Source: Rossellomorea vietnamensis (GTDB taxonomy: Bacteria; Bacillota; Bacilli; Bacillales; Bacillaceae_B). From it: DNA of 64,000 nucleotides. The stretch is from NCBI RefSeq assembly GCF_025398035.1, contig NZ_CP104558.1:1798001-1862000 (forward strand), given 5' to 3'. Shown here piece by piece: positions 17,341-19,461 of the stretch. The stretch's first letter is position 1. Every line of letters starts with the position of its first letter. The notes below the pieces were generated by a model. The model saw only the letters and a program-made list of their open reading frames with translations, did not search any database and was not told the origin of the DNA. Position numbers and translations under genes: made by a program.

Positions 17341-18633
17341 CTACTTCAAAGCATTCATCTCCCATACTTTCTCCTCTCCGGTTTCCATATCCTTCACCTT
17401 AAACTGATTCTTCCGGACCTCCTCTTCTCCTATAACAATCACATTCCGTACCCCTTCTTTATTTGCTTTCTCCAAGAGTTTTCCTAATTTCCGGCTGCTC
17501 ATCTCAACTTCGACAATATAGCCTTTTTTCCTTAAATCATTTGCCACCCGTAAAGCTTCCTTCCCGGTACCAAGTGGAATGACGTAATAGTCAACGGTGG
17601 CACTTTTCTTCCCATTTTGCTTAGTCGTCATGATCGCTGCATATATGACATCCAATCCAAAGGAGATACCGACGGTCGAGACATTTTCACCTGTTCCCAA
17701 TAGACCACCGATAGCATTGTCATACCGTCCTCCGCTACCGATGCTTGATGTGATGGACCCATCCGTTAAGAATATTTCATAAATGGTTCCCGTGTAAATT
17801 TCCAGACCTCTTGCCAAAAAGGGATTAAACACGCATTGTTCGTTGATTTCCAGGAAGTCAAGATAGGAAGTCAGTTCCTTTAATTCATCCAATCCTTCCC
17901 TGATTTGGCCGTTTTGATCGGCGTATGACTCGAAATAGCCCAATCTGTTATTGTCACAGTCTGTTAAAAATTGTTGTATCAATCGGCTAGTACTGTCCGC
18001 AATGGACAGTTCAGAGAGTTCTGAGATGACCGACTCGACACCAATCTTTTCGAGTTTATCGAGGATCAAGACTGCTTGATTGATTTGATCCGCTTCCACA
18101 CCGAACACTTCAAGCATCCCCGTCAGCAGTTTCCGGTTATTATATTGAATGGTCACCTTCATATCGAGCTTTCCGAATGCATCCAGTGCCATCATCATCA
18201 GCTCTGCTTCCGCTACCTGTGATTCGACGCCAACTATATCCACATCGCACTGAGTGAATTCCCTGAACCTTCCCGCCTTGATAGGTCCGTCCCTGAACAC
18301 TTTTCCAATTTCATAGCGCTTGAACGGCATGGGGATGGTCGGGTTCATGGCCGCCACCTTGGCAAAAGGAATCGTGAGGTCATATCGCAGGGCGAGATCC
18401 CTTTCTCCCCTATCCGTTAAGGTATACATCTCTTCCAGGATCTCAGCACCACCCGCATATTTTGAAGCAAGCAACTCTGTGTAATTCAGGATAGGGGTCT
18501 CGAGGGGCTTGCAGCCGTATTGGATGAAAACGTCCTCCAGAGTCCTCCTGACTTCCCTTCGGATCACTTCCGCCTCCGGTAAATAATCCTGTGTCCCTTT
18601 GACATTTTGATAATCCATCTTCTTCATTTTCAT
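17341..18633 (-). CDS. hisS: Histidyl-tRNA synthetase (probable second copy)
   Basis: 430 residues: class II catalytic core with ALRYDLTIPF (81-90), motif 2 KRYEIGKVFRDG (105-116) and GRFREF, the HisA-type motif ARGLEIYTGT (274-283; the usual form is RGLDYYTGT), motif 3 GGRYDN (301-306), and an anticodon-binding domain in the last 90 residues. It charges tRNA-His. It stands alone; in Bacillus the housekeeping hisS is normally followed by aspS and preceded by a T-box, neither of which is here, so this is probably an auxiliary synthetase. The upstream leader encodes a His-rich peptide and an attenuator, so expression should rise on His-tRNA shortage. ATG 18631-18633 follows GGAGGAG. Confidence 0.9.
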   Translation of the reverse strand: MKMKKMDYQNVKGTQDYLPEAEVIRREVRRTLEDVFIQYGCKPLETPILNYTELLASKYAGGAEILEEMYTLTDRGERDLALRYDLTIPFAKVAAMNPTIPMPFKRYEIGKVFRDGPIKAGRFREFTQCDVDIVGVESQVAEAELMMMALDAFGKLDMKVTIQYNNRKLLTGMLEVFGVEADQINQAVLILDKLEKIGVESVISELSELSIADSTSRLIQQFLTDCDNNRLGYFESYADQNGQIREGLDELKELTSYLDFLEINEQCVFNPFLARGLEIYTGTIYEIFLTDGSITSSIGSGGRYDNAIGGLLGTGENVSTVGISFGLDVIYAAIMTTKQNGKKSATVDYYVIPLGTGKEALRVANDLRKKGYIVEVEMSSRKLGKLLEKANKEGVRNVIVIGEEEVRKNQFKVKDMETGEEKVWEMNALK

Positions 18634-18651
18634 CTTTCTTCTCCTCCTTTT

Positions 18652-18759
18652 TTGTATAAAAAAAGAACCGCACTTGATAAGCGAATAACTTAATCAAATG
18701 CGGTTCTATGGGAAATAACCTTCCTATGTGCGATTGTTAAAAATCGGATAGCAAGGTTA
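18652..18759 (-). promoter_or_regulatory. Histidine attenuator: pause hairpin and terminator
   Basis: Hairpin 1 pairs TAACCTT (18753-18759) with AAGGTTA (18716-18722) and, inside, CTAT/ATAG and CGATT/AATCG. The terminator pairs AGAACCGCA (18699-18707) with TGCGGTTCT (18664-18672), extended inside by further pairs, then a T run down to 18652. The 3' arm of hairpin 1 can instead pair with the 5' arm of the terminator (GGTT/AACC and AATCG/TGATT), giving an antiterminator. Hairpin 1 begins in the leader-peptide stop codon. Confidence 0.8.
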
Positions 18760-18813
18760 CTTGTTATGATGATGGAATTGTGTGAATGAGCATTGCTTGT
18801 TGATGAGAGTCAT
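18757..18813 (-). CDS. Histidine leader peptide of hisS
   Basis: 18 codons reading MTLINKQCSFTQFHHHNK and a TAA stop. Three consecutive His codons (14-16) sit three codons from the stop. The ATG (18811-18813) has a strong AGAGGTGG site 6-7 bases upstream and a SigA-type promoter at 18839-18867. A ribosome stalled on the His codons would mask the 5' arm of hairpin 1 and favour the antiterminator. This is the classical his-leader layout of enteric bacteria. It is too short for normal gene calling. Known: T-boxes are the usual Bacillota solution; no T-box consensus is present here. Confidence 0.82.
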   Translation of the reverse strand: MTLINKQCSFTQFHHHNK

Positions 18814-18838
18814 ATTTATCCACCTCTTATTTTCATAT

Positions 18839-18867
18839 ATGTTATCACGGCGGAAGATGGTTTTCAA
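18839..18867 (-). promoter_or_regulatory. hisS leader promoter
   Basis: TTGAAA (18862-18867), 17-base spacer, TAACAT (18839-18844); the transcript would start just upstream of the leader-peptide ribosome binding site. Confidence 0.65.
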
Positions 18868-18891
18868 TATATGTTGATGATTTATCGGTAA

Positions 18892-19461
18892 CTATTCATT
18901 TCCCCTTTTAAAGGCGTCAATGATGAGAGAAGGAGCAGCTAGCCTTTCTCCCTGATTTCTTGGATCGAACTTCTTGGATCGGAAGATGACCCCGTCAGCA
19001 CCATCCCAGTTATTTTGATGGAACTGTCCGCTTTCGTCACAATACTCTAGTAACCTGACTTCAAACCCTGCAGCTTCAAATAACTCAGTTAATAATTTAT
19101 AGTTGTAGACAATCTTATGACTCGCTGCAGGATGATCTTCCGGTCCCGGACCTCCTATCTGCACAATACTTTGATAGGTTTCATCAGGAAAATATCCATC
19201 AGGCACAGCACATCGAATATACCCAGACCGCTTAAGGTACTTCATACATATCCTTGTTGCCTGCAGACCTTCTTCGTATGTAAGGTGTTCCCAAACATGC
19301 TCTGCTAATAAAACGGATATCGAACTTTCTTCGAACATGTTCTGCCACGTCGTTTCGTCCAGTAAGTTCAGGTCTTCTTCCTGGGTATGCAGCCAGCCGG
19401 GATTATTATGATATTCTCCTGCGCCGATCACGACTTTGAGTTCTGTTTGGGTATTGTTCAT
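18892..19461 (-). CDS. SAM-dependent methyltransferase-like protein
   Basis: 189 residues resembling class I methyltransferases: a loop near the N-terminus (VVIGAGEYHNNPGWLHTQ) in place of the glycine motif I, the motif HVWEHLTYEEG (compare EHxxH/P of ubiE-like folds), and AVPDGYFPD. It lacks a canonical GxGxG, so catalytic activity is uncertain. Downstream gene of a short run with an alpha/beta hydrolase (17 bases apart). Confidence 0.7.
   Translation of the reverse strand: MNNTQTELKVVIGAGEYHNNPGWLHTQEEDLNLLDETTWQNMFEESSISVLLAEHVWEHLTYEEGLQATRICMKYLKRSGYIRCAVPDGYFPDETYQSIVQIGGPGPEDHPAASHKIVYNYKLLTELFEAAGFEVRLLEYCDESGQFHQNNWDGADGVIFRSKKFDPRNQGERLAAPSLIIDAFKRGNE

Follow-up and report, generated by a model that had tools for sequence, protein, structure and literature searches.

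The attenuator of the enteric his operon (RF00514) places His codons in a short leader ORF that is accompanied by hairpins and a terminator. In Bacillota, synthetase genes are normally controlled by T-boxes. The literature, consulted in excerpts, describes two systems that come nearest to the one considered here. A His leader peptide in front of hisS* and hisZ of bacilli was predicted in 2010 by Naville and Gautheret (PMC2965389), and in 2022 Ashniev et al. (PMC9413887) described attenuator RNAs ahead of his operons, found in the Bacillus cereus group, Peptostreptococcaceae and Erysipelotrichales. We found no system in the literature that is closer than these two.

In the window, the whole 64-kb stretch of DNA (64,000 nucleotides) analysed here, a His-codon leader region lies upstream of hisS2 on the minus strand (18867–18652; Table 1). 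A sequence-only reading had named a promoter-like site, a Shine-Dalgarno sequence, an 18-codon ORF with a His triplet, a hairpin starting from the stop codon, a terminator and a Shine-Dalgarno sequence for the synthetase gene, and all of these parts are present. Its statement that the leader contains no T-box consensus was upheld, as no Rfam family, T-box (RF00230) included, reached its gathering score within the window. A permissive Rfam scan of 18600–18900 returned two matches at chance level, and RF00514 gave none at gathering score in the window and none at E ≤1 in 18600–18900. The 182-nt leader is predicted to fold with −50 kcal/mol, compared to −24.7 (sd 3.8) for shuffled sequences (z −6.7; 0 of 200 shuffles as good), and the terminator accounts for about −22 to −25 kcal/mol. 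This terminator is visible in the fold; a terminator scan of 18300–19000 reported no terminator-like site. The promoter scan of the same interval gave two sites against 1.3 expected by chance, and the promoter-like site is weak on its own. The encoded peptide ends in ...FTQFHHHNK*.

Table 1. Features of the leader region and of hisS2 (positions in the window)
Feature	Positions	Strand	Basis
Promoter-like TTGAAA-17-TAACAT	18839..18867	-	promoter scan, 9/12 matches
Leader-ORF Shine-Dalgarno AAGAGGTGG	18820..18828	-	sequence
Leader ORF, 18 codons, MTLINKQCSFTQFHHHNK, ATG 18813, stop TAA 18759-18757	18757..18813	-	sequence; retained in relatives
Three His codons CAT CAT CAT	18766..18774	-	sequence
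Hairpin 1 (H1; strands A and B), Lys and stop codons in base	18713..18762	-	fold, covariation, swap test
TTATTT, 3' foot of hairpin 1, fits NusG pause motif TTNTTT	18713..18718	-	motif match
Intrinsic terminator (strands D and E), T run 18664-18658	18658..18707	-	fold, covariation, swap test
hisS2 Shine-Dalgarno AGGAGG	18643..18648	-	sequence
hisS2, second histidyl-tRNA synthetase, 430 aa, ATG 18633	17341..18633	-	profile matches

The leader does precede a HisRS gene, as had been read from the letters, with the refinement that this gene is the second HisRS gene of the genome. The hisS2 protein matches NF009085 (618.5 bits, cutoff 540) and TIGR00442 (362.7 bits, cutoff 286.75), and a separate main hisS in the same 4.5-Mb genome carries a T-box (123.4 bits), which served as a positive control for the T-box search. 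Genome-wide, the leader model R1 identified one true site together with two opposite-strand shadows. Two tandem T-box pairs were also observed in this genome (C1:314382-314918 and 730350-730830), one member of the second pair lying just below the cutoff. The genome's own hisZ (L109) has no R1 match; a CATCACCAT string occurs upstream of it. The element is probably a ribosome-read His-codon leader-peptide attenuator of hisS2, which would give the genome an inducible reserve HisRS, encoded by hisS2, in addition to a main hisS under T-box control. Conservation, covariation, the codon switch and the absence of B:D co-evolution are observations, reported below; translation of the ORF, stalling of ribosomes on it, the sign of the response and the pausing of RNA polymerase are inferences.

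Protein searches gave 51 distinct hisS2 loci, all of which were fetched (L001–L026, L031–L050 and five more), and the leader is present in 48 of them. It is missing in G060, where hisS2 is broken, in G101, which shows a partial match, and in G234, which has a diverged intact frame. Two further hisS2 loci beyond the 51 (L156 and L158) also carry the leader. In the order sample, hisS2 was found at E ≤1e-60 in 37 of 249 genomes and the leader model R1 at E ≤0.01 in 73 of 397, some of the latter matches being weak; a class-wide scan was positive in 3 of 348 genomes, the window's own among them. When one genome per species was scanned with a pattern that demanded most of hairpin 1, 58 stretches were recovered from Rossellomorea, Cytobacillus, Halobacillus, Shouchella, Viridibacillus, Oceanobacillus and others. 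Inspected by eye, 49 of the 58 have a HisRS-like ORF as their first long frame downstream; no long ORF was found within the stretch in eight, and one has a different ORF. The last case, from a Lysinibacillus MAG (L102), has the leader QLQHHIF* followed by a first long ORF that is not HisRS-like. Oceanobacillus sp. J11TS1 carries a second leader copy (L076) on the same contig as L089, with its terminator end disrupted, and Sutcliffiella horikoshii CH28_1T has leaders on two contigs (L056 and L096), each before a HisRS-like ORF.

Leader features were counted in 79 unique leaders, a regex set that demanded some His codons, GGA[AT]G and TATT, so that counts of those features are inflated. Outside this set and the swap tests were 34 loci that fail the regex, not all of them leaders, and L116–L147, most of which duplicate other sampled loci. 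Conservation of the peptide is mainly confined to its end, Q-(L/F)-HHH plus zero to two codons, and the N-terminal half varies freely. Between the start of the His run and the stop there are three His residues in 69 of the 79 leaders, two in nine and four in one. The distance from the first base of the His codons to the end of the stop codon behaves as a ruler, measuring 18 nt in 56 leaders, 15 nt in 22 and 12 nt in one. A start codon and a Shine-Dalgarno-like sequence are present in 78 of 79 (by script; L033 and L037 by eye), the sole leader missed in this count, L006, having GGGGTGG. Hairpin 1 usually has the stop codon as its foot; the stop codon of L037 sits just upstream of the hairpin. 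The leader thus offers what is required of a ribosome-mediated attenuator, a short ORF, predicted to be translated, with regulatory codons just before its stop.

Both hairpins are maintained by compensatory change. In alignment A1, which holds 45 leaders, the two hairpins are paired in 92.9% of cells, ten pairs show two-sided changes, and their covariation score is 0.173, compared to at most 0.073 in slid controls. We also compared native strands with strands exchanged between species among the 79 unique leaders, with identical leaders removed and relatedness uncorrected. The native strands of hairpin 1 (A:B) paired far better than swapped ones (z −14.6), and the same holds for the terminator (D:E; z −15.0). 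Judged by its T run, its covariation and the swap test, an intrinsic terminator stands between the leader ORF and the gene. Beyond the needs of pairing, hairpin 1 and the terminator stem show invariant columns in A1 around ATAGGA and AACCG, and hairpin 1 contains a conserved G.G mismatch (G18752 opposite G18723) that pairing does not explain. The strand-A G of this mismatch is present in 78 of 79 leaders; the facing G was demanded by the regex.

Although R1 was built from His leaders only, it also matched leaders with Gln codons in family f26 (E values per single genome): ...QLQQQN* in G237 (E 5e-14), ...TIQQQQ* in G260 (E 2e-9), ...HVQQQK* in G187 (E 3.5e-5) and ...RQQQQI* in G103 (E 0.003). 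Five more Gln leaders, in G341, G162, G281, G417 and G418, were found by reading. The loci are L149/L190 (G237), L150/L192 (G260), L194 (G187), L195 (G103), L230 (G341), L231 (G162) and L227–L229. Downstream of the four matched leaders stands an ORF for an RlmI-like methyltransferase, followed by glnS; the methyltransferase ORF of G260 scored below NCBIfam cutoffs, and GlnS was confirmed by TIGR00440 above its cutoff in G237 and G260. In family f26, a glnS-like match was obtained in all 35 genomes searched (36 matches, 30 loci fetched). The methyltransferase ends closely upstream of glnS in 12 of the 30 fetched loci, and a leader carrying three or more Gln codons close to hairpin 1 precedes nine of these 12 methyltransferase–glnS operons. 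Despite the same gene arrangement, reading revealed no Gln leader in G322, G380 and G435, and a relaxed search over the whole length of L232–L234 gave no leader. Among the fetched glnS loci, that of G432 (L222) shows a methyltransferase-like end at a greater distance upstream, and c-di-GMP-I riboswitches lie near two others (L207, 2099-2183; L210, 1016-1103).

The scaffold of the Gln leaders is that of the His leaders. The G.G mismatch is retained in folds of G237, G260, G187 and G103 and, by eye, in G281, G417 and G418, and the first four also keep a ruler of 15 or 18 nt (by eye). In G162, G281, G417 and G418 the leader frame has no stop at the hairpin foot, where it usually ends, and G341, G281, G417 and G418 have their Gln codons scattered among other codons. 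On this common scaffold the regulatory codon fits the regulated gene, His with HisRS and Gln with the glnS operon. Such a natural His-to-Gln codon swap, matched to the synthetase, suggests that a ribosome reads the codons. The open-access literature searched yielded no report of a glnS leader peptide with Gln codons.

In the mechanism that we propose, a ribosome would translate the 18-codon leader ORF and, when charged tRNA-His is scarce, would halt at the His triplet, altering the fate of the terminator before hisS2. The switch element is likely to be hairpin 1, with its G.G mismatch and its TTATTT pause-type motif, and not a B:D antiterminator. A ribosome reaches about 12–13 nt downstream from the start of its A-site codon. 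Placed at the first His codon, it would end about where hairpin 1 starts and leave the hairpin folded; at the stop codon, it would melt the 5' strand. Under starvation, folded hairpin 1 would then go with read-through, and under plentiful His, melted hairpin 1 with termination, if the sign is as we propose. In folds of the window masked accordingly, hairpin 1 is intact when the A site holds the first His codon; when it holds the third, the hairpin loses its lower part and a 4-bp GGTT/AACC helix appears. In these models, a stall at the first His codon, the likeliest place, would not yield a four-segment switch, whereas a stall at the third could do so weakly.

Hairpin 1 with its TTATTT foot would probably also pause RNA polymerase just before the terminator, letting the ribosome catch up; from the spacing of the motif, the pause would fall near 18708. 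TTNTTT is exact in 14 of 79 leaders and YTNTTT is found in 56 of 79, and TTNTTT occurs in about 1.5% of 10-nt windows on the plus strand of the 64-kb window. In excerpts of two studies, TTNTTT is given as the NusG pause motif of B. subtilis (PMC9226507, PMC12288461), and the motif alone is reported as insufficient in one of them (PMC12288461).

Diverged His leaders of family f23, which R1 also matches (L153, L154, L155 and L156), have a five-segment arrangement. L156 precedes a diverged hisS2 (51% identical). An amino acid permease (Pfam PF13520) lies downstream of L155. Another ORF follows both L153 and L154, that of L153 having no Pfam match. We folded L153, L155 and L156. Before strand E is made and with A free, A:B and C:D form (−35.7, −39.3 and −31.9 kcal/mol, respectively); with A masked, B:C forms. 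In the masked folds of L153 and L155, D is still contacted by letters upstream of B:C, and in that of L156 it folds into a separate small hairpin. Once strand E has been made, the best fold of every state tested, a ribosome at the first His codon included, contains the terminator. Since full-length folds always hold the terminator, read-through in the five-segment leaders would depend on timing alone, and a stall before hairpin 1 could favour it during transcription, a prediction for three leaders. With A free, A:B together with C:D would capture a terminator strand before E is made, and in this respect the modelled folds speak for the proposed sign.

For the window's version, we found no RNA pairing that stops the terminator (about −22 kcal/mol) once hairpin 1 has folded. 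This counts against the proposed attenuator, and so do the full-length five-segment folds, the leaderless intact hisS2 of G234, the Gln frames that overrun the hairpin foot, the three methyltransferase–glnS operons lacking a Gln leader and the small share of leaders with exact TTNTTT. Hairpin 1 might itself be the antiterminator, acting on RNA polymerase or on a factor without pairing to the terminator, its folding gated by where the ribosome stops, and the cassette would have been re-aimed from hisS2 to the glnS operon by exchanging His for Gln codons. None of the three folded five-segment leaders has the G.G mismatch (a different mismatch lies nearby in L153 and L155), as this reading expects of relatives in which RNA pairing could suffice. 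We nevertheless regard it as unlikely.

Classic four-segment attenuation, in which a stall on the His codons masks A, B pairs with D and the terminator is blocked, had been suggested by the sequence-only reading from an alternative pairing, GGTT/AACC plus AATCG/TGATT. Its letters do exist in the window, but the comparison of orthologous leaders that had been called for separates the parts of the proposal: the ORF with its His codons is kept (48/51 loci) and hairpin 1 and the terminator covary, whereas the alternative pairing lacks both conservation and co-evolution. GGTT occurs together with AACC in only 14 of the 79 unique leaders, AATCG with TGATT in 42, and both halves in 12. Native B:D strands pair no better than swapped ones (−4.90 vs −4.92 kcal/mol; z +0.2), and the alternative pairing is worth about −5 kcal/mol in the window against about −25 for the terminator, B:D being far weaker than D:E. 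Taken as a whole, the proposed pairing holds in 83.6% of A1 cells, compared to 14.8–55.1% when slid, with the proposal itself derived from one A1 sequence; its covariation is no better than that of shuffles. Pair 80-94 of GGTT/AACC is broken in 30 of 45 leaders because hairpin 1 itself covaries there, G-C replacing A-U while the terminator letter stays constant. The other half pairs in 87.4% of A1 cells, but its AATC/GATT core, paired in most leaders, barely varies and so provides no evidence either way. Folding offers this reading the 4-bp helix at the third His codon and, when A is masked in L031 and L034, a CAAATA.G/C.TATTTG helix. With the footprint given above, however, a ribosome at the first His codon would stop short of strand A and one at the stop codon would reach it, which gives the wrong sign. 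Altogether, we consider four-segment attenuation quite unlikely.

Other pairings were tried and rejected. A shifted B:D helix (AATC..AAATAGG with CCGTATTTGATT) that is good in a few lineages paired in 79.0% of cells without a two-sided change, and 500 of 500 shuffles scored as high. A linker:D hairpin gave P 0.71 with 79 leaders and 0.64 with 56 non-redundant ones. Pairing of leader codons with the terminator arm (ATCAAGT with ATTTGAT) was dropped by eye, the codons past His being variable, and a second small ORF starting within the linker was dropped as the linker in the window has no ATG. The swap test on the 79 unique leaders gave no conserved signal for A:E, A:D or B:E. In leaders of the window's type there is thus no conserved B:D, linker:D, A:D, A:E or B:E pairing that would provide a mutually exclusive antiterminator capturing a terminator strand.

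The excess conservation in hairpin 1 and the terminator stem (ATAGGA, AACCG and the strand-A G) is what one would see if a protein, HisRS2 itself or an RNA-binding antiterminator, bound one of these structures and the leader ORF were secondary. We consider this very unlikely, as the change from His to Gln codons tracks the downstream synthetase while the hairpin and terminator features stay the same; with these constant and the codons matching the synthetase, amino-acid specificity resides in the codons and not in the hairpin. AACCGC/GCGGTT was also compared with what we take to be the acceptor sequence of tRNA-His, and mimicry of that acceptor was rejected, because the Gln leaders of G237, G260, G187 and G103 share AACCGCA. 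A further reading takes the product of the short ORF to be a small protein with a function of its own, or the terminated leader to be a small RNA; the terminator would belong to it and hisS2 would use its own promoter. In its favour, 138 to 339 bases separate the terminator end from the hisS2 match in L036, L041, L014 and L021. Against it, the N-terminal half of the peptide is free to vary, Q-(L/F)-HHH and the position of the stop being mostly retained, hairpin 1 includes the stop codon, and a HisRS-like ORF follows in most pattern-scan stretches (49/58); we find this reading hardly credible.

Returning to the ribosome-read attenuator, its occurrence across many Bacillales genera, together with the natural His-to-Gln swap, would make it a test case for a ribosome steering RNA polymerase in cells such as those of B. 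subtilis, where transcription and translation are reported, in the excerpt at hand, to be mostly uncoupled (PMC7858274). The lack of an antiterminator turns the way in which the switch works into a testable question.

Compared to known systems, the element would share with T-boxes (RF00230), one of which precedes the main hisS here, the control of synthetase genes in Bacillota; the hisS2 leader has no T-box, and its sensing would proceed through translation. With the enteric his attenuator, which is also described in the excerpt of PMC9413887, it has in common a short leader ORF containing His codons, as well as hairpins and a terminator, and it differs by having no Rfam match, no conserved antiterminator pairing and a synthetase gene as its target. 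The vmlR leader of Bacillus subtilis, as excerpted (PMC9226507), likewise combines a uORF, ribosome stalling, a NusG-dependent TTATTT pause and an intrinsic terminator, of which stalling and pausing are presumed for our leader. However, vmlR senses antibiotics and not an amino acid, and its stall prevents an anti-antiterminator so that an antiterminator forms; no antiterminator was found here. The Firmicutes attenuators of PMC9413887 likewise have a leader peptide whose three to five His codons immediately precede attenuator and terminator structures, but they control his operons and have described antiterminators, and hisS does not occur in the excerpted text. The closest likeness is to the element of PMC2965389, which in the text available also concerns a Bacillus hisS paralogue, a short ORF with a stretch of His codons and a terminator; the window element is very probably the leader predicted there. 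The same text, within the part available, mentions no alternative pairing, no G.G hairpin and no Gln or glnS version (glnS has 0 occurrences). We conclude that the element is a member of an already predicted family, to which, as far as the literature searched shows, the following are new: the test of a B:D antiterminator, the ruler and the G.G mismatch, the related leaders of five segments, and the glnS version with Gln codons.
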